Below, piece after piece: positions 12,345 through 40,900 of a stretch of DNA of 64,000 nt; positions within the stretch are counted from its first letter, which is position 1, and each line of letters begins with the position of its first letter. Under the pieces are notes generated by a model that saw only the letters and a list, made by a program, of their open reading frames with translations, made no database searches and was not told where the DNA came from. A program made the translations under genes and the position numbers. The DNA is from Pelomonas sp. Root1237 (GTDB lineage Bacteria > Pseudomonadota > Gammaproteobacteria > Burkholderiales > Burkholderiaceae_C): NCBI RefSeq assembly GCF_001425055.1, contig NZ_LMDK01000016.1, forward strand, positions 533,803-597,802. The letters are read 5' to 3'.

Positions 12345-12466
12345 CCTCCAAGCGCCCCGCCGTCGCCGGCTAGTGTCCTACTTAGCGACTGCAGCGGAAC
12401 TGGCTTTGCCAGGCCGCTAGCAGTGCCCCTTGAGGGGCCGGCGTCAGCCGGTAGGGGTGGGCTTGA
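12345..12466. repeat. Intergenic structured repeat, copy R1
   Basis: This 122-bp stretch between ndk and rlmN is one of four related intergenic elements in the window. It contains hairpin A at 12400-12412 (CTGGC-TTT-GCCAG) and hairpin B at 12425-12438 (GCCCC-TTGA-GGGGC). Copy R3 has the same two hairpins with compensating base changes in A (CCGGC-TTT-GCCGG). It has no coding potential that I trust. It may act as a transcription attenuator or RNA-processing element between ndk and rlmN; that is inference. Confidence 0.7.
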
Positions 12467-16950: not shown

Positions 16951-17766
16951 ATGTTTGTTGAGAAATTCAAGACCGCCCGCGTCGTCGCTGGCACTGTCCT
17001 GATGGCGTTCGCGCTGGGCTTGAGCGGTTGCGGCTCCACGGCCAAGGAGGATCCGAACTCCCAGGCGGCGCTGGACAAATTGTATGCAGACGCCAAGGAC
17101 GACCTGAACGCCGGCAGTTACGACCGCGCCATCAAGGCGCTCGAAAAGATCGAAGGTCGCGCCGCCGGCACGACGATGGGCCAGCAGGCGACGCTGGATG
17201 TGGCCTGGGCGTACTACCGCACGGGCGAGCGCGCCCAGGCGATTGCCACGCTGGACCGCTTCATCAAGCTCAACCCGTCCAGCCCGGCGATGGACTACGC
17301 CCTGTACATGAAGGGCATCGTCAACTTCAACGAGGACTTGGGACTGTTCGGCCGCCTGGCCAACCAGGACGTGTCCGAGCGCGACCAGCAGGCCTCGCGA
17401 GAAGCCCTGCTGGCCTTCCGCCAGCTCGTCGAGCAATTCCCCGAGTCCAAGTACGCGGCCGAGGCGACGACGCGCATCAACTTCATCACCAACACGCTGG
17501 CGGCCTACGAGATCCACGTGGCGCGCTACTACTTCAACCGCAAGGCCTACGTCGCCGCGGCGAACCGCGCCCAGTCAGCCGTGGCCGAGTTCCAGTACGC
17601 GCCCGGCATCGAGGAAGGCCTTTTCATCATGGGCGAGAGCTATGACAAGCTCGGCCTGACCCAGCTGCGTGACGACGCCCGCCGCGTGCTCGACAAGAAC
17701 TTCCCCGACAGCCAGTACGCCAACAACGGCGCCAACCGCAAGAAGCCCTGGTGGCAGCTCTGGTAA
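16951..17766 (+). CDS. bamD: BamD, outer-membrane assembly lipoprotein
   Basis: BamD is the essential TPR lipoprotein of the BAM complex. A signal sequence with lipobox LSGC (Cys at about residue 27) is followed by TPR units (ALDKLYADAKDDLNAGSYDRA; QQATLDVAWAYYRTGERAQA). The 271-residue length is normal. Only 43 bases separate its ATG from the preferred rluD start, and no good ribosome-binding site is visible. A strong terminator follows directly, so it is monocistronic. Confidence 0.96.
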   Translation: MFVEKFKTARVVAGTVLMAFALGLSGCGSTAKEDPNSQAALDKLYADAKDDLNAGSYDRAIKALEKIEGRAAGTTMGQQATLDVAWAYYRTGERAQAIATLDRFIKLNPSSPAMDYALYMKGIVNFNEDLGLFGRLANQDVSERDQQASREALLAFRQLVEQFPESKYAAEATTRINFITNTLAAYEIHVARYYFNRKAYVAAANRAQSAVAEFQYAPGIEEGLFIMGESYDKLGLTQLRDDARRVLDKNFPDSQYANNGANRKKPWWQLW

Positions 17767-17776
17767 GTTGAATTGG

Positions 17777-17799
17777 ACGGGCCGCTCAGGCCCGTTTTC
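17777..17799 (+). terminator. Intrinsic terminator after bamD
   Basis: Perfect 7-bp stem ACGGGCC/GGCCCGT with a five-base loop, followed by TTTTC, starting 11 bases after the bamD stop codon. Confidence 0.85.
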
Positions 17800-17804
17800 T
17801 ATTC

Positions 17805-18027
17805 CGGGCCGAGCGCCGGGCCGCTCCCAAGCCGGCCCGACCGGCGATGTGCGCGCGGCTCGATGCCGCGAGCATCGCCGTCCCCGCGGGGGCTGAGGCC
17901 GGACACGGCAAGTCCTGTGGACTTGGCGTGCCTGCCGAAGAGCAGCCGCCCCGTCGGCTGCGCGGTCTGCAAGACCGACCAGACTTGCTCGCGTTCAGCG
18001 ATGCAAGGTTGGGCGAGGGGTCGTCAC
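17805..18027. repeat. Intergenic structured repeat, copy R2 (longest copy)
   Basis: The stretch between bamD and the DinG-like gene is built of successive hairpins. Hairpin E (outer stem GGCGATG/CATCGCC at 17843-17849 and 17873-17879; inner CGCGGC/GCCGCG) is shared, inverted, with R4. Hairpin B (CCCCGCGGGG at 17882), hairpin C (CAAGTCC/GGACTTG, 17909-17925) and hairpin D (GCAGCCG/CGGCTGC, 17942-17961) match R3 in order and flanks but not in arm sequence. The flanks CTGAGGCCGGACAC and GCCTGCCGAAG are identical or nearly so between R2 and R3. No gene is seen in it. Confidence 0.75.
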
Positions 18028-18028
18028 G

Positions 18029-20080
18029 TCACGCCCGTTCTGCATTCAGCAACTGCAACCAGGCCAGGGCCTCGGCTTCGTTGGCCACCGCCGTCATCGG
18101 CGGCAGCGCCGCGCGCAGGCGGCGTCCATAGTTCATGCCCGCCATGCGTGGGTCGCACACCACCAGCAGGCCACGATCGGTCTCGGTACGGATCAGCCTC
18201 CCGGCGCCCTGCTTGAGCGCAATCGCCGCCTCGGCGACGAAATATTCCGAGAAGGCATTGCGCCCCTGGGCCTCCAGGCGCTGCACACGCGCCTCCACGA
18301 GCGGGTCGTTGGGCGGCGGGAAGGGCAATTTGTCGATGATCACGCATTGCAGTGCGTCGCCGGGCACATCGATGCCTTCCCAGAAGCTGGCCGAGCCGAC
18401 CAGGACCGACGCCGGGTTGTCGATGAAGCGCTGCAGCAGCACACGCTTGGGGGCAGCGCCCTGCTGCAGCACGGCGATCGCGTCGCCGGCCTCCTCGAAG
18501 CGCTCACGCAGCGCGTCGGCCACGGTCTGCAGATTGCGCAACGTCGTGGTCAGCACGAAAGTGCGACCGCCTAGCGCCCGTGCCAGGCGTGACGCCAGCA
18601 GAGCAACGCTCGGCGGATGGCTGGGCTCACTGGGCTTTGGGAAACCGCGCGGCACGTAAAGGCGCGCATGAGTCGGATAGTCGAAGGGGCTGCCGACACG
18701 CAGCACCTCGGCCTCGGTCAGGCCAGCGGGCTCGGTGAACCACGTCAATCCTTCGTCGTCGCCCAGCGTGGCCGAGGTGAACACCCAGGCCTTGGGCGGC
18801 CCCTCCAGCTGCTGCTGCATCGCGTCGCGGATGTCCAGGGGCGACTCGACCAGGCGGGCCGCATGCGGGCTGATGTCGATCCAGCGCACGTCTCCCGGAT
18901 CAGGGTCGGTGGCGAACTGTTTGGCCAACTCACGCAACTCTTGGGCCCGCTCACACAGGCGCGCGAAATCGGGCGCGGCCTCGCGCACGGCGGTCAGGGC
19001 CTCCAAGGCCTTGGCCGTCGCCACTTCGACGCCAGCCAGCGCCGTGGCGAAACCGGGCTGGTTCGCCCTCTCCTTCCAGCCCAGCTTGAGTGTGCCGCGC
19101 AGCTCGCGGCCGGCGGTGGCCAGCGGGCCGGCCGCGGCCAGGCGCAGCTCCCGCGCCGCCTTCTCGACACCCGCATGCAGGCCCTGCCAGTCGTGCACGC
19201 CGCGTGCATGGGCCAGGCCCTGGGCCAGCACATCACGCGCGAAATCGATCAGCGAGGCCGTACCCAGCAGCGTGCCGAGGAACTGCACGCCGGCCTCGGC
19301 GAGCTGGTGGGCCTCGTCGAAGATGGCGATCTCGACGCTGGGCAGCAGCTCGGCCACGCCGGTGTCGCGCAGCGTCATGTCGGCGAAGAAGAGGTGGTGG
19401 TTGACGACGACGACATCGGCCTCCATCGCCTCGCGTCGCGCCTTGACGACGTAGCAGCTCTTCCAGTCCGGGCACTCCTGGCCAAGGCAGTTCTCGCGGC
19501 TGGAGCTGACGATGGGGATGATGGGCGAGCGCTCGTCCAAGCCGTCGATCTCGGCAAAATCGCCCGTCGTCGTGCCCAGGGCCCAGCGCTCGATGCGCGC
19601 CAGCGACAGCGCGGTGCGGCGGTCCGGGAACTCGCCGGACACGCGCGCCTCCTTCATGCGGTGCAGGCAGAGGTAGCTGCTGCGCCCCTTCAGCAGCGCC
19701 AGGCGCACCGGCGTGTTCAAGGCCTTGGTCAGTCGCGGCAGGTCGCGCAGGAAGAGCTGGTCCTGCAGGCTCTTGGTGGCGGTGCTGATGAGGGCACGGC
19801 TACCCGCCAGCAGGGCCGGGACGAGGTAGGCGAAGGTCTTGCCGACACCGGTACCCGCTTCGACGACCAGGGCCTGGCGGCGGCTGAGCGCCCGGGCGAC
19901 GGCACGGGTCATCTCCAACTGGGGCGCGCGGGGCCTGTAGCCCCGGTCCAGGCGCGCCAAGGGGCCGTCCAGGTCGAAAGCGGCCAAAACGGCCTGTTCG
20001 AGTTCGTCAGCAGCGGGCGGGGCGGGAGGGGTGGCCTGATCGAGGGCGTCGAGCCAGTCGTCGAGATCAGGCGGGTTCAT
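18029..20080 (-). CDS. DinG/YoaA-type ATP-dependent DNA helicase
   Basis: This is a superfamily 2, XPD-like 5'-3' helicase with an iron-sulfur domain, related to YoaA and DinG and expected to act in DNA repair or replication-fork rescue. With the ATG at 20080 it has 683 residues. Visible are the Walker A motif GTGVGKT (76-82), four Cys spaced as the Fe-S ligands (about 138, 198, 203, 209), DEAH (255-258) and the C-terminal motif QGAGRLIRTETDRG. A TTG ten codons upstream is less likely. It overlaps the small gene upstream by 14 bases. Choosing between YoaA and DinG from sequence alone is not safe. Confidence 0.9.
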   Translation of the reverse strand: MNPPDLDDWLDALDQATPPAPPAADELEQAVLAAFDLDGPLARLDRGYRPRAPQLEMTRAVARALSRRQALVVEAGTGVGKTFAYLVPALLAGSRALISTATKSLQDQLFLRDLPRLTKALNTPVRLALLKGRSSYLCLHRMKEARVSGEFPDRRTALSLARIERWALGTTTGDFAEIDGLDERSPIIPIVSSSRENCLGQECPDWKSCYVVKARREAMEADVVVVNHHLFFADMTLRDTGVAELLPSVEIAIFDEAHQLAEAGVQFLGTLLGTASLIDFARDVLAQGLAHARGVHDWQGLHAGVEKAARELRLAAAGPLATAGRELRGTLKLGWKERANQPGFATALAGVEVATAKALEALTAVREAAPDFARLCERAQELRELAKQFATDPDPGDVRWIDISPHAARLVESPLDIRDAMQQQLEGPPKAWVFTSATLGDDEGLTWFTEPAGLTEAEVLRVGSPFDYPTHARLYVPRGFPKPSEPSHPPSVALLASRLARALGGRTFVLTTTLRNLQTVADALRERFEEAGDAIAVLQQGAAPKRVLLQRFIDNPASVLVGSASFWEGIDVPGDALQCVIIDKLPFPPPNDPLVEARVQRLEAQGRNAFSEYFVAEAAIALKQGAGRLIRTETDRGLLVVCDPRMAGMNYGRRLRAALPPMTAVANEAEALAWLQLLNAERA

Positions 20081-21718: not shown

Positions 21719-21882
21719 ATCAAGCGGCCGCCGTGGAACCGGCTTTGCCGGGCCACTGGCGGCGCCCCCTCGAAGGGGGCTGAGGCCGGACACAAACGGC
21801 ACGCCGTTTGCGCCTGCCGAAGGGTCGGCCCCTCCGGGGTCGGCGCGGCCTGCAAGGTGCGCGAAGCGAGTAGGGGGTGGCC
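21719..21882. repeat. Intergenic structured repeat, copy R3
   Basis: This copy lies between zapE and the secreted coiled-coil gene. In order it holds hairpin A (CCGGC-TTT-GCCGG, 21740-21752), hairpin B (CCCCC-TCGAA-GGGGG, 21766-21780), the conserved CTGAGGCCGGACAC, hairpin C (CAAACGGC/GCCGTTTG, 21794-21811), GCCTGCCGAAG and hairpin D (21827-21843). Order and flanks match R2; the stems pair with different sequence. Confidence 0.75.
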
Positions 21883-28669: not shown

Positions 28670-28976
28670 CTTTCGCTCACCTCATGCCCCGGTTTCCAGG
28701 GAGTTGGCTGGTTGAAGAACCTTCCGCGACACGGCTCGACCGGTTGGCGGATTGCGACCCACCTCTGCTGTTGCCAGGGGCAACTGCAAAAGGGACGGGA
28801 AGGAATAAAAGTATCAGGGGCGGACTCTAGCACTCCGGGTTTGCCCGACAAGGTGGACGGGGTGCGACAAAGTTCACGCACCGGGATGCAGCAAAGTTGA
28901 CTGGCCCGTAAACTTGGTGGTCGCGCCAGCCCCGAGATTGAATGGTTGAACGCGAGGGACATTCAGGAGATCCCAG
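28670..28976. other. Divergent control region between odhA and the 2OG oxygenase gene
   Basis: This 307-base region carries the starts of two oppositely oriented genes and no open frame that I trust. A candidate odhA promoter lies at 28824-28851. On the plus strand the oxygenase start has a clear AGGAG, but I see no convincing -10/-35 pair for it. Confidence 0.6.
28824..28851 (-). promoter_or_regulatory. Candidate odhA promoter
   Basis: On the minus strand TTGTCG (28846-28851) and TAGAGT (28824-28829) are separated by 16 bases, about 155 bases before the odhA start. This is a moderate sigma-70-like match. Confidence 0.35.
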
Positions 28977-36069: not shown

Positions 36070-37638
36070 ATGAAATCTCTGCTCCGACTCCTGCCCCTGC
36101 TGGCCGCACTGACGCTGGGAGTGGCCACTGCCGCCCCACTGCGCTGGGCCGCACAAAACGACATCCTGACGCTGGACCCGCACTCGCAGGACCACAACAC
36201 CTCCAACGCCATCGGCACGCACATCTACGAGGGGCTGACGCGGTTGGGCAAGGAGTACCGCCCCGAGCCGTCGCTGGCGACCAAGTGGACCTACCTCTCC
36301 CAGACCCAGGTGCGCTTCGACCTGCGCAAGGGCGTCAAGTTCCATGACGGCTCGCCCTTCACGGCCGACGACGTCGTCTTCAGCTTCGGCCGCATCACCC
36401 AGCCCCAGGGCACCAAGCAGACCTATGTCTCGGGCATCAAGGAGGTCAAGAAGATCGACGACCACACCGTCGACTTCATCCTCGAGGCGCCGACGCCGAT
36501 GCTGCTGCAGAACATCATCAGCTTCCCCATCATGAGCAAGGTCTGGTCGACCAAGAACAACACGACCAACACCCAGGACTACAAGGCCAAGGAAGAGAAC
36601 TTCGCGAGCCGCAATGCCAATGGCACCGGGCCCTACAAGCTGGTGAGCTGGCAGCCCGACCAGGCCGTCAAGATGGTGGCCAACAAGGACTGGTGGGACA
36701 AGAACCCGGGCAATGTCACCGAGCTGAGCTATCTGCCGATCAAGTCTCCGCCGACGCGCGTGGCGGCCCTGCTGTCGGGCGACGTCGACATCGTCACCGA
36801 CCTGCCGCCGCAGGACTTCTTCAAGCTCAAGGAAGAAGGCAAGGTCAGGCTGCTGGAAGGCTCGGAGATCCGCACCGTCTTCTTTGTCATGGACGAGGGC
36901 AGCGAGGAGTTGCGCGAGTCCAATGTGAAGGGCAAGAACCCCTTCAAGGACAGAAAAGTGCGCGAGGCCATGAACCTGGCCCTGGACCGCGAGGCCATCA
37001 AGCGCAGCATCATGCGTGGCCTGTCGGTACCGGCGGCGCTGATGATTGCGCCGGGTGTCAACGGCTATGACGCAGCACTCGATGCACCGCTCAAGCCCGA
37101 CCTCGACAAGGCCCGCAAGCTGCTCGCCGAGGCCGGCTACCCGCAGGGCTTCGAGGTGCCGCTGCACTGCCCCAACAACCGTTACGTCAACGACGAGCAG
37201 GTCTGCCAGGCGGCGGTGTCGATGTGGGCCAAGATCGGCGTCAAGGTGCGCCTCATCGCCCAGCCCTTCTCCACCCACAGCCAGACCTTCCAGCGCGGCG
37301 AGTCGCCGTTCTACATGCTGGGCTGGGGCGTCTCCACGTATGACGCCCTCTACGGCATGCAGGCCTGGGGCCACACGCGCACCAACGGCGCGGACGGCAA
37401 CTTCAACTTCGGCAAGGTCAGCGACGCGACGCTCGATGGCCTGATCCAGAAGATCAAGTTCGAGCCCGACGTGCCCAAGCGCAACGCCCTCATCAAGGAA
37501 GCCCTGCTGCGCATCCGCGACGAATACCTCTTCGTGCCCATCCACCACCAGATCCGGCCCTGGGCGATGAAGCCGAGCGTCGAGACCATCCACCGCTCGA
37601 ACGACTATTTCGAGGCTCGCTACACCACCATCAAGTGA
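36070..37638 (+). CDS. Family-5 ABC solute-binding protein, tandem copy 1
   Basis: A 522-residue secreted solute-binding protein of the DppA/OppA/NikA family. Signal peptide (MKSLLRLLPLLAALTLGVATA), then PLRWAAQNDILTLDPHSQ, FHDGSPFTADDVVFSFGRI and a C-terminus with HHQIRPWAMK. Proteins of this family deliver peptides, opines or metal chelates to a permease. AAGGAAAG precedes the ATG at 36070; the frame is open far upstream but overlaps other genes. It is the first of three paralogues linked by overlapping stops and starts. Confidence 0.9.
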   Translation: MKSLLRLLPLLAALTLGVATAAPLRWAAQNDILTLDPHSQDHNTSNAIGTHIYEGLTRLGKEYRPEPSLATKWTYLSQTQVRFDLRKGVKFHDGSPFTADDVVFSFGRITQPQGTKQTYVSGIKEVKKIDDHTVDFILEAPTPMLLQNIISFPIMSKVWSTKNNTTNTQDYKAKEENFASRNANGTGPYKLVSWQPDQAVKMVANKDWWDKNPGNVTELSYLPIKSPPTRVAALLSGDVDIVTDLPPQDFFKLKEEGKVRLLEGSEIRTVFFVMDEGSEELRESNVKGKNPFKDRKVREAMNLALDREAIKRSIMRGLSVPAALMIAPGVNGYDAALDAPLKPDLDKARKLLAEAGYPQGFEVPLHCPNNRYVNDEQVCQAAVSMWAKIGVKVRLIAQPFSTHSQTFQRGESPFYMLGWGVSTYDALYGMQAWGHTRTNGADGNFNFGKVSDATLDGLIQKIKFEPDVPKRNALIKEALLRIRDEYLFVPIHHQIRPWAMKPSVETIHRSNDYFEARYTTIK

Positions 37639-39209
37639 GGGCGCGACATGGCGTTCTCACGGCCCTGGCCTGCGGGCTGTTTGCCGCCCTGTCCGCCAGC
37701 GCGGCCCCGCTGCGCTGGGCCGCGCAGAACGACATCCTGACGCTGGATCCGCATTCGCAGAACCACACCACCTCGCTGACCATTGCCGCCCAGGTCTACG
37801 AGGGCCTGACGCGGCGGGGCGAGAACTACCAGCCCGAGCCCGCGCTGGCGACGCGCTGGAGCTATGTGTCGCCCACCCAGGTGCGCTTCGAGCTGCGCCG
37901 CGGCGTGAAGTTCCACGATGGCAGCCCCTTCACAGCGGATGACGTCGTCTTCAGCTTCGCCCGCATCCGCGAGCCGCAGGGCGCGATGCAGGCCTATGTG
38001 TCGGGCATCCGCGAGATCCGCAAGCTGGGCGACTACACGGTCGACCTGATGCTGGAGGCACCGGCACCGCTGCTGCTGCAGAACCTCGTCAACTTCGCCA
38101 TCCTGAGCCGCGCCTGGGCGGTGCGCAACCACGCCAGCCATGTCGAGGACTTCAAGGCCAAGGAGGAGAACTACGCCTCGCGCAACGCCAACGGCACCGG
38201 CCCCTACCGACTCGTCAGCTGGCAGCCCGACCAGGCCGTGCAGATGGTCATCAACAAGGACTGGTGGGACAGCAACAAGGGCAACATCACCGAACTGACC
38301 TATCTGCCGATCAAGTCGGCGCCCACGCGCGTGGCGGCACTGCTGTCGGGCGATGTCGACCTCGTCACCGACGTGCCGCCGCAGGACTACCAGCGGCTCA
38401 AGACAGACAAGCGCCTCAAGCTGATGGAGGGCGCCGAGGTGCGCACCGTCTTCTTCGCCATGGACCAAAGCAGCGAGGAACTGCGCGATTCCAGCGTCAA
38501 GGGCCGCAACCCCTTCAAGGACAAGCGCGTGCGCGAGGCGCTGAACCTTGCTCTGGACCGCGAGGCCATCAAGCGCAGCATCATGCGCGGCCTGTCGGTG
38601 CCCGCAGCGCTGATGGTGCCGCCTGGCGTCACCGGCTACGACGCAGCGCTGGATACGCCGCTGAAGCTCGACGCCGACAAGGCCCGCAAGCTGCTGGCCG
38701 AGGCTGGCTACCCGCAGGGTTTCGAGTTGCCGCTGCGCTGCCCCAACAACCGCTACGTCAACGACGAGCAGATCTGCCAGGCCGCGGTGGCGATGTGGGC
38801 CCGCATCGGCGTGCGGGTGCGGCTCAACGCCCAGCCGATGAGCCTGCACATCCAGGCGCTGGAACGCTATGAGTCGCCGTTCTACCTGATCGGCATTTCC
38901 ATGCCGACCTACGACGCCCATCAGGGCCTGCAGGCCTGGGGCCACAGCCGCGATGCGCGCGGCAACGGCGGCCAGAACTTCAACCGCCTCGCCGACGCGG
39001 CGCTGGACACGTTCGTCGAGCGCATCCAGTTCGAGCCCGACGCGAGCGCCCGCAACGCGCTGATCCGCGAGGCCTTGCTGCGTGTGCGCGACGAGTTCCT
39101 CTTCATTCCGGTGCATCATCAGATCCGGCCCTGGGCCATGAAACCCGGCGTCAACACCCTGCACCGCTCGAACGACACCTTCGAGGCCCGCTTCACCACC
39201 CTTCCATGA
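37635..39209 (+). CDS. Family-5 ABC solute-binding protein, tandem copy 2
   Basis: A 524-residue close paralogue of copy 1, sharing its blocks in order (PLRWAAQNDILTLDPHSQ, KFHDGSPFTADDVVFSF, NANGTGPYRLVSWQPDQ, HHQIRPWAMK). The start is a GTG whose TGA overlaps the previous stop, so it is translationally coupled. The signal peptide is ALACGLFAALSASA. The near-identical core with local differences (for example LRRGVKF against LRKGVKF) suggests duplication with later divergence of ligand preference. Confidence 0.9.
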   Translation: MRARHGVLTALACGLFAALSASAAPLRWAAQNDILTLDPHSQNHTTSLTIAAQVYEGLTRRGENYQPEPALATRWSYVSPTQVRFELRRGVKFHDGSPFTADDVVFSFARIREPQGAMQAYVSGIREIRKLGDYTVDLMLEAPAPLLLQNLVNFAILSRAWAVRNHASHVEDFKAKEENYASRNANGTGPYRLVSWQPDQAVQMVINKDWWDSNKGNITELTYLPIKSAPTRVAALLSGDVDLVTDVPPQDYQRLKTDKRLKLMEGAEVRTVFFAMDQSSEELRDSSVKGRNPFKDKRVREALNLALDREAIKRSIMRGLSVPAALMVPPGVTGYDAALDTPLKLDADKARKLLAEAGYPQGFELPLRCPNNRYVNDEQICQAAVAMWARIGVRVRLNAQPMSLHIQALERYESPFYLIGISMPTYDAHQGLQAWGHSRDARGNGGQNFNRLADAALDTFVERIQFEPDASARNALIREALLRVRDEFLFIPVHHQIRPWAMKPGVNTLHRSNDTFEARFTTLP

Positions 39210-40780
39210 AGCTCATGAAAATCTCCACCCTTTGGGCCGCCGCCTGGCTGGCCACCGCGCTGACCGCCACGGCCGACCCACTGCGCTGGGCGGCCCAGAA
39301 CGACATCCAGACGCTGGATCCGCATTCGCAGAACCACTCGGCCACGTCCACCATCACCGGCTACGCCTATGAAGGCCTGACCCGCTACACGGAGAAGTTC
39401 GACGTCGAGCCGGCACTGGCCGCTAAGTGGACCTTTGTGACGCCCACGCAGGTGCGCTTCGACCTGCGCCGCGGCGTCAAGTTCCATGACGGCACGCCCT
39501 TCACGGCGGATGATGTCGTCTTCAGCCTGCAGCGCATCAAGCACCCGGCCAGCAACATGATCATCTATGCCTCCGGCATCAAGGAGGTGAAGAAGATCGA
39601 CGACCACACGGTGGACTTCATGCTCGAAGGCCCCAACCCCGTGCTGACGCGCAACCTGACCTATGTGCGCATCGTCAGCAAGGCCTGGGCGACCAAGAAC
39701 CGCTCCGAGAACCCGCAGGACTTCAAGGCCAAGGAGGACACCTATGCCTCCCGCAACGCGATGGGCACGGGGCCGTTCAAGATCACGGCCTGGCAGCCGG
39801 ACCAGCGCATCAGCATGGTGGCCAACAAGGACTGGTGGGACAAGCCCAAGGGCAATATCTCAGAGCTGACCTATCTGCCCATCAAGTCCGACGCAACCCG
39901 CGTGGCCGCCCTGCTGTCTGGCGACCTCGATCTGCTGACCGACCTGCCACCCCAGGACGTCGCCAAGCTCAAGGCCGACCCGCGGCTCAAGGTCATCGAC
40001 GGGCCCGAGAACCGCACCATCTTCTTCGCGCTGGACCTGGGCAGCGAAGAGATCAAGGGCAGCAACGTGAAGGGCAAGAACCCCTTCAAGGACAAGCGCG
40101 TGCGCGAGGCGATGTCACTGGCCATCGACCGCGAGGCCATCAAGCGCAGCCTGATGCGCGGCCTGTCGGTGCCGGCGGCCATCATGGTGGCGCCCGTCGC
40201 CTACGGCCACTCGGCCGAGCTGGACACGGTGCAAAAGCCCGACGTGGCGCGCGCCAAGCAGTTGATGACGGAGGCCGGCTATGCCGAAGGCTTCGAGGTG
40301 CCGCTTGCCTGCCCCAACGACCGCTACGTCAATGACGAGGAGATCTGCCAGGCGGTGGTGTCGATGTGGACGCGCATCGGCGTGAAGGCCAAGCTGTCGA
40401 CGCAGCCGATGACCCAGCATTCGGCCGCCATGCAACGCTACGAGTTGCCGCTGTACATGTACGGCTGGGGCGTGACGACGTTCGATGCGCAGTACACGCT
40501 GCAGGACATCGTCCACACCAAGACCGGCGGCGCCGACGGCAAGGGCAATTTCTCCAAGGTCAGTGACGCCAAGATCGACGCACTGGTGCAGCAGATGAAG
40601 GTCGAGACCGACGTGCCCAAGCGCCTGGCGCTGATGCAAGAAGCCTTGAAGCGCACGCGCGACGAGTTCCTCTTCATCCCCATCCACCACCAGGTGCGCC
40701 CCTGGGCCATGAAGGCCGGTCTGACCATCCCGCACTCGGCCAACGATGCCCCGCAAGCCAAATGGGCCACAGTGAAGTGA
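39206..40780 (+). CDS. Family-5 ABC solute-binding protein, tandem copy 3
   Basis: A 524-residue paralogue and the most divergent of the three by eye (PLRWAAQNDIQTLDPHSQ at the start, NAMGTGPFKITAWQPDQ, and HHQVRPWAMK at the end). It begins with MKLMKIS overlapping the previous stop in ATGA. No permease or ATPase follows: the next item is repeat R4 and then a TRIC-like channel gene, so the transporter partner must be elsewhere if it exists. Confidence 0.9.
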   Translation: MKLMKISTLWAAAWLATALTATADPLRWAAQNDIQTLDPHSQNHSATSTITGYAYEGLTRYTEKFDVEPALAAKWTFVTPTQVRFDLRRGVKFHDGTPFTADDVVFSLQRIKHPASNMIIYASGIKEVKKIDDHTVDFMLEGPNPVLTRNLTYVRIVSKAWATKNRSENPQDFKAKEDTYASRNAMGTGPFKITAWQPDQRISMVANKDWWDKPKGNISELTYLPIKSDATRVAALLSGDLDLLTDLPPQDVAKLKADPRLKVIDGPENRTIFFALDLGSEEIKGSNVKGKNPFKDKRVREAMSLAIDREAIKRSLMRGLSVPAAIMVAPVAYGHSAELDTVQKPDVARAKQLMTEAGYAEGFEVPLACPNDRYVNDEEICQAVVSMWTRIGVKAKLSTQPMTQHSAAMQRYELPLYMYGWGVTTFDAQYTLQDIVHTKTGGADGKGNFSKVSDAKIDALVQQMKVETDVPKRLALMQEALKRTRDEFLFIPIHHQVRPWAMKAGLTIPHSANDAPQAKWATVK

Positions 40781-40810
40781 AGCCCCTCGTCCAAGGAATA
40801 CCTTGGCCGG

Positions 40811-40900
40811 TCCCCCGAGGGGACGGCGATGCTTGCCGGTTCGACCGGCAAGCACATCGCCTGGGCGGGCCGGCTAGGGAGCGGCCCGGCGCTCGGCCCG
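40811..40900. repeat. Intergenic structured repeat, copy R4 (inverted)
   Basis: About 90 bp between the solute-binding gene and the TRIC gene match the first part of R2 in reverse orientation. The outer stem is identical (GGCGATG at 40825-40831, CATCGCC at 40855-40861), but the inner stem (CTTGCCGGT/ACCGGCAAG) differs from R2's CGCGGC/GCCGCG and still pairs. The CGGGCCGAGCGCCGGGCCGC-type flank is shared (on the opposite strand). Confidence 0.7.

Follow-up and report, generated by a model that had tools for sequence, protein, structure and literature searches.

The intergenic repeats R2 and R4 of the window, i.e., the whole 64,000-nucleotide stretch of DNA analysed here, are members of a high-copy repeat family that we name T1, a mobile-looking short DNA repeat with swappable hairpins of which the host genome holds well over a hundred copies. 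One end of the element, the F end, lies a few bases behind a stop codon in most copies, which is a new finding here. We regard T1 copies as probable short non-autonomous mobile elements of the REP/BIME kind, spread via a folded single strand by an enzyme acting in trans, and a host function for T1 is not needed to account for the data.

R2 (17805..18020, plus strand), as delimited by query matches and aligned copies, is a complete T1 element with the modules A-B-C-D-E1-E2-F and a GAGGGG end. The sequence-only reading had placed it at 17805-18027; its start holds, and 18027 runs into the flank. On the plus strand follow module A, the end hairpin CGGGCCG..CGGCCCG (17805..17839; pairing in 66 copies), module B, a long hairpin with a covarying centre that is missing in some copies (17843..17879), the CCCC 5′ arm of C/P1 as predicted by alifold (17882..17887), the module D hairpin (17893..17940), in which CTGAGGCCGGACAC and GTGCCTGCCGAAG, the fixed flanks of the earlier reading, enclose an arm, the E1 and E2 hairpins (17942..17977), and the module F hairpin (17979..18020) with its conserved end GCGAGGGG at 18013-18020. 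R4 (40783..40900, minus strand) is a short T1 element, A-B-C-F without D-E, with a short F hairpin (CCAAGG..CCTTGG). It is the reverse complement of a short form of R2 (blocks 82% and 93% complementary), and the earlier claim that it matches R2 in reverse is borne out, although its limits had been given as 40811-40900. Counting one base beyond GGGG as element, the F end of R2 lies 7 nt from the stop of a YoaA/DinG-family helicase gene, and R4 follows at 1 nt the stop of a gene coding for a protein that matches ABC transporter substrate-binding models. Positions 36124-40714 of the window are taken up by three homologous stretches in tandem, with a period of 1571 bp, and their last gene matches models of ABC transporter substrate-binding proteins.

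All four window copies had been taken for one repeat, but R1 and R3 belong to a second, rarer family, named T2. R1 (12345..12462, plus strand, the start as read earlier) ends in GTAGGGGTGGGC at 12451-12462, 4 nt from the ndk stop, and R3 (21719..21882, plus strand, both limits as read earlier) ends in GTAGGGGGTGG at 21870-21880, the zapE stop (21883) following 2 nt further on, so that a stop codon is close by for each of R1 to R4. The individual observations behind the earlier grouping are sound: the quoted strings occur in the window where they were reported or a few bases away, the hairpin with compensating changes common to R1 and R3 lies at 12396-12415 and 21735-21754, and the D hairpins of R2 (17893-17940) and R3 (21780-21822) combine fixed flanks with different arms.

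A search for further genome copies, set beforehand as a test that could refute the repeat, found many. Allowing at most one mismatch, the T1 end-module (module-A) motif has 142 occurrences in the 6.4 Mb genome, 65 on the forward and 77 on the reverse strand, vs. one for the reversed control. R2 as a DNA query gave at least 47 matches in the same genome, with the best 40 of 250 candidate places scored, and the D-flank pattern gave 20 exact matches vs. none for its reversed control. The tool drew 150 genomes of the same family, and in 97 of them the module-A motif matched at least once, in many cases at control level, with the reversed control reaching 10 matches in one genome. Copy-rich genomes by this motif are G009 (82), G148 (66), G156 (51), G145 (48), G085 (47), and G063 (43), and three loci of G156 (L375, L376, and L378) hold tandem arrays with whole short elements every ~125 bp. 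Six module-A motifs spaced 88 bp apart lie in G107 at C9:222541-222998. Over named genomes, the central pattern matched in 95 stretches, and the 80 of these that were listed carry the titles Pelomonas, Roseateles, Aquabacterium, Rubrivivax, and Rhodoferax, as well as Burkholderiales, Burkholderiaceae, and Comamonadaceae MAGs and one MAG titled Acidobacteria. This spread of T1 across genera is in keeping with a mobile element. R2 had no match in plasmid and phage collections (blastn, 1e-5), Rfam gave nothing at gathering score at the repeats in a scan of the whole window and only four weak matches (E 6.4-9.9) for R2 up to E 10, and a literature search returned no title that we recognised as describing a T1 repeat. 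Elsewhere in the window, a sucA RNA motif (Rfam RF01070, 81.8 bits) lies at 28674-28757 on the minus strand.

The aligned copies indicate that T1 is a hairpin chain, A-B-C-[D-E]-F, in which B and the ~80-nt cassette formed by D and E are optional. Among 37 copies on 1.24 Mb, seven reach the length (≥179 nt) needed for D-E; most of the remaining ones measure 119-138 nt, and three measure 79-84 nt, two of which are without B (C16:1034535 and C1:77332). The overall length range is about 80-219 nt, and by eye the ends read (T)TT/GTATT-CGGGCC at one side and CGAGGGGC at the other. T2 has its own end hairpin, GGAACYGGCTTTGCCRGGCC, and its copies carry GTAGGGG near the end; the end-hairpin stretch of R3 has at least 17 matching places including R3 itself, with the best 40 of 115 candidates scored, and R1 is not among them. 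The central D-E cassette is common to R3 and R2, and is absent from R1. At gap #378 (C16:435838-436034), orthologous copies of one insertion, with shared flanks, are without D-E in the window's genome and with D-E in G002. That the cassette is common to both families suggests that the hairpins themselves can be units that move. Two further arrangements were seen: at L078 (about 1490-1660), a T2 copy carries a D-like cassette in reversed orientation beside a CCCCCTTGAGGGGG hairpin, and at L247, the bamD gap of G007, a hairpin unit with a D-like core (GTCGGACAC..GTGCCTACGAAAGG) interrupts module A.

The second test set beforehand concerned whether the arms change while pairing stays, and here too the earlier reading survives. 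In 66 distinct full-length copies (mean pairwise identity 82.5%), RNAalifold on the A-to-F strand predicted 76 pairs, and on the other strand the same 76 plus one. Standard pairs fill 96.9% of 4,869 pair cells, compared with 35.7-50.6% when partners are slid by 1 to 5 columns, and 22 of the 76 pairs show at least two Watson-Crick types, each in at least two copies, vs. 3-9 when slid. Modules A and P1 contribute none of these 22 pairs; in module A, 96.8% of 792 pair cells are Watson-Crick. In 21 copies of the window's genome, analysed on the other strand, 96.1% of cells are paired (shuffled 89.1%), 21 pairs are changed on both sides (shuffled 13.4), and the covariation score is 0.180 (shuffled 0.067, slid 0.016-0.040), while further pair types, at 31, are not above the 32.6 of the shuffles. 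Full copies are predicted to pair the CCCC arm of C with the GAGGGG end, enclosing D, E1, E2, and F, whereas in short copies the same arm is predicted by alifold to close a local hairpin. Selection for structure is likely. It falls short of proof because these statistics are pair counts on alignments of related copies whose events are not independent, so that within subfamilies one co-change is counted many times, and because template switching from arm to arm could also keep perfect palindromes.

Wobble pairs offer a lead as to which strand folds. On the A-to-F strand, G.T outnumbers A.C by 128:27 cells and 33:13 columns, but scoring each pair type a single time per pair leaves only 40:21. 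After thinning to <90% identity (31 copies), the D-E-F domain still shows 41:5 cells and 16:3 columns, with loops at 23:27, whereas A and B go from 32:14 to 11:11, and a wider A-B set goes from 70:39 in 156 sequences to 20:27 in 40 thinned ones. Because D-E-F keeps the bias after thinning, this domain appears to take its fold on the strand antisense to the mRNA of the gene that it abuts. The same bias might be read as the trace of a structured RNA made from the A-to-F strand, antisense to the flush gene, that acts in trans or serves as an RNA intermediate, a reading that we consider very improbable. Single-stranded DNA would yield an identical bias, A and B lose theirs, the module E loops lean in the same direction as the pairs (7:0 thinned), and the strand opposite to A-to-F permits an invariant G.U pair. 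A scan of 17700-18100 showed no promoter-like site, and Rfam provided no match. The module E loops and the G.U pair also weigh against the strand assignment itself, as do the C-to-T changes, which outnumber G to A by 43:16 when all loops are pooled. As a check for replication-strand bias, the GC skew of contig C16 was too flat to assign a replication direction.

The position of T1 relative to genes follows a strong pattern. In 31 of the 37 copies, a gene that reads towards the element has its stop 0-11 nt away from the F end; of the others, one overlaps a predicted gene end by 27 and five are reversed. None of the 37 sits in a predicted divergent gap, though 72 of the 280 gaps of ≥130 nt on C16 are divergent. 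A second set comprised 38 copies with a predicted gene on both sides from the other contigs of the central-pattern scan, some of them contigs of near relatives, so that orthology among a few of them, or with copies of the first set, is possible; here the F end is at the gene end in 34 copies and within -1 to 12 nt in 33, and predicted divergent gaps hold two. Genes were called throughout by a simple purpose-made codon scorer that was trained on C16 and applied to other genomes too. On C16, 3.3% of 234,378 noncoding strand-positions fall within 12 nt after a same-strand stop, and 19% of the 1,997 positions in a TGA(R)G/TAA(R)G/ATGRAG context do so. Against these expectations, the 28 of 31 copies on C16 alone correspond to binomial tails of ~1e-38 and ~1e-17, respectively. 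Since the motif context places only 19% near a stop, a short target motif alone does not explain the post-stop position. In the flank set (107 of 119 candidate copies, the 12 without a recognisable F end being dropped), G precedes CCCCTCG in 88%, and the six bases there weakly resemble ATGRAG; read in flush-gene sense, the A-side flank begins (C/A)AA and is A-rich. Where the A side faces a gene start, ≤51 nt are left before the start in 16 of 19 copies.

Such a position could also be expected of a host 3′-UTR regulator, i.e., a terminator, attenuator, mRNA-end shield, or ribosome-stalling hairpin kept by selection on the expression of the preceding gene. A stop within 12 nt in 31/37 and 33/38 copies and the lack of copies of the first set in predicted divergent gaps speak for such a role, as does the report of ribosome stalling by E. 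coli REPs that lie ≤15 nt from a stop (PMC12306157). We nevertheless judge it unlikely, as both presence and orientation of T1 vary among close relatives at the same gap, and D-E-F retains its G.T wobble on the strand antisense to the flush-gene mRNA. Termination in particular is unlikely because no T-run was seen after the hairpins and 16 of 19 copies leave ≤51 nt before the downstream start; for the same two reasons attenuation, one of three options offered by the sequence-only reading, is not favoured. What an intrinsic terminator would present as a hairpin followed by a T-run is here a hairpin followed by an A-side flank that is A-rich in the flush-gene sense. A scan of 17700-18100 gave no terminator-like site, and the same scan missed a terminator-like hairpin with a T-run after bamD.

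Mobility is the option that the orthologous sites favour: the non-autonomous repeat is the best supported of the three, with both empty and filled sites among relatives. In the bamD-helicase gap, 4 of 16 readable relatives of the same genus have an element, 2 have remnants, and in 10 none was recognised by eye; the element has the same orientation in the window's genome and G003, and the opposite one in G002, G009, and G007. The module-A motif test, applied to 229 gaps against G002, scored 6 occurrences as own-only, 3 as G002-only, and 4 as shared, and for 176 gaps against G009 it scored 5, 0, and 4, respectively, i.e., 11 own-only, 3 relative-only, and 8 shared in 405 gap comparisons, where the own-only count includes #562 (with G009), whose shortened element escapes the motif test. 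Opposite orientations in different genomes were found at three gaps (#396, #477, and #608), and a G002 copy lies in gap #347, which is predicted to be divergent. Presence and absence, opposite orientations, and presence and absence of D-E at orthologous gaps together argue that the element moves. At gap #344 (C16:394334-394496), the G002 ortholog has an unrelated, imperfect inverted repeat of ~100 nt (CAACCACAGAGACACTGAGG...) in place of T1.

In principle, T1 might move as a MITE, by means of a DDE transposase that duplicates the target, or in SINE-like fashion, through target-primed reverse transcription with long variable duplications. Target-site duplications of 15-28 nt were first read from several flank pairs and have been withdrawn as a general rule, since permutations gave only a slight excess. 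No general duplication was found among 101 non-redundant copies (those of the 107 left after removal of shared flanks) with permuted flank pairs and 42 lengths tried. True pairs scored 14.27 vs. 13.44 for permuted ones, with 32 of 10,000 permutations as high, and the best ungapped match over all lengths was 5.61 vs. 5.35 (sd 0.11). Both excesses lean slightly towards duplication, as do the A-rich start of the A-side flanks and a stretch like GAACGGGCCTGA that flanks the element of the bamD-helicase gap on both sides in the window's genome and G003. However, the true partner had a median rank of 47 of 101 and was never first, only L=33 of the 42 lengths stands out (z=3.0), and stop and start codons are often present in both flanks. 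No terminal inverted repeats were seen by eye at the T1 ends, and together with the missing fixed-length duplication this does not resemble a DDE-type MITE, although old duplications may have decayed. We consider these routes the least probable of the readings weighed here.

Single-strand HUH movement is known from REP/RAYT and IS200/IS605. The palindromes of T1, the lack of terminal inverted repeats and of a general target duplication, and the weakly conserved flanks fit such movement. A pairing with RAYT of the REP type was considered for T1 and rejected on finding Y1 loci without a T1 copy: the 3.3-kb loci of the three Y1 transposase genes of the window's genome (within ~1.5 kb) hold none. 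Apart from one stretch of L052 (1734-2314) with up to 31 hits, blastn of these loci revealed no multi-copy palindrome that we recognised. G085 has no Y1 match at E 0.001 despite 47 module-A motifs, and G107, G075, and G089 have none despite 16, 9, and 13 motifs. These Y1 results weigh against the mobile-element reading, as do the exceptions in placement (the five reversed copies of 37, the two of 38 in predicted divergent gaps, and the G002 copy in #347).

In the mobile-element reading that we prefer, chains of palindromes would spread as a folded single strand, with the enzyme for movement supplied in trans, and the F end would be joined to a stop codon or to the bases directly behind it, perhaps with the aid of a TGA(R)G/ATGRAG-like site; insertion would be tolerated there as both neighbouring reading frames stay intact. 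Copies present in the host have their hairpins in 3′ untranslated regions, where termination might be slowed or mRNA ends protected, as is reported for E. coli REPs close to stop codons (≤15 nt), and an effect of T1 on translation or mRNA decay is possible. More tentatively, and in our view doubtfully, T1 may represent a class of modular elements that join closely behind stops and spread through a single folded strand without Y1/RAYT, with a D-E cassette that moves alone and nests in at least two families in both orientations. Since the relatives of T1 offer empty, filled, flipped, and cassette-bearing sites, along with genomes without a Y1 match, target choice and enzyme are separately testable.

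Among known systems, T1 can be compared with the REPs of E. coli, with REPIN and RAYT/TnpA-REP systems, and with the REP/BIME super-families GTAG and CGTC. E. coli REPs share with T1 a hairpin within 15 nt of a stop codon, although this is reported for 446 of 4,072 predicted REPs, and for 260 of 496 in an earlier study cited in the same paper (PMC12306157), compared with 31/37 and 33/38 T1 copies within 12 nt. REPIN and RAYT/TnpA-REP systems are likewise described as non-autonomous miniature mobile palindromes, with TnpA-REP reported to act on single-stranded REP hairpins (PMC3116915, PMC8266576) and REP/RAYT to move as single strands by HUH chemistry (PMC8266576). By contrast, T1 does not consist of two REPs inverted about a spacer to form one hairpin, as in a REPIN, its modules being different palindromes in a row, and it differs from RAYT/TnpA-REP systems in that Y1 loci are without T1 and motif-bearing genomes are without a Y1 match. 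As for the GTAG and CGTC super-families, T1 at ~80-219 nt with several hairpins differs from the 20-40 bp REPs described in PMC3733652, and it has an optional nested cassette and no terminal GTAG or CGTC tag that we could see. By eye, there is no unpaired GTAG at one end, as expected of a GTAG-REP, and no terminal CGTC tag, 8-9 bp stem starting from A/T pairs, or CCA tail, as PMC3733652 describes for CGTC-REPs; among the three Y1 genes of the window's genome, there is no cognate RAYT gene flanked by the repeats. The main text of that paper, supplements aside, does not contain Burkholder-, Leptothrix, Methylibium, Polaromonas, or Variovorax. T1 nevertheless is a high-copy extragenic palindrome, as GTAG-REPs are, and a mosaic of distinct palindromic modules, as BIMEs are. 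Like the elements of both super-families, which are described as high-copy intergenic palindromes mostly between unidirectional and convergent genes, placed <20 bp from the 3′ end of the upstream gene and at a varying distance from the downstream one (PMC3733652), T1 keeps close to the gene that precedes it. Although longer, modular, and without a GTAG/CGTC tag or a RAYT partner, T1 acts like REP/BIME.
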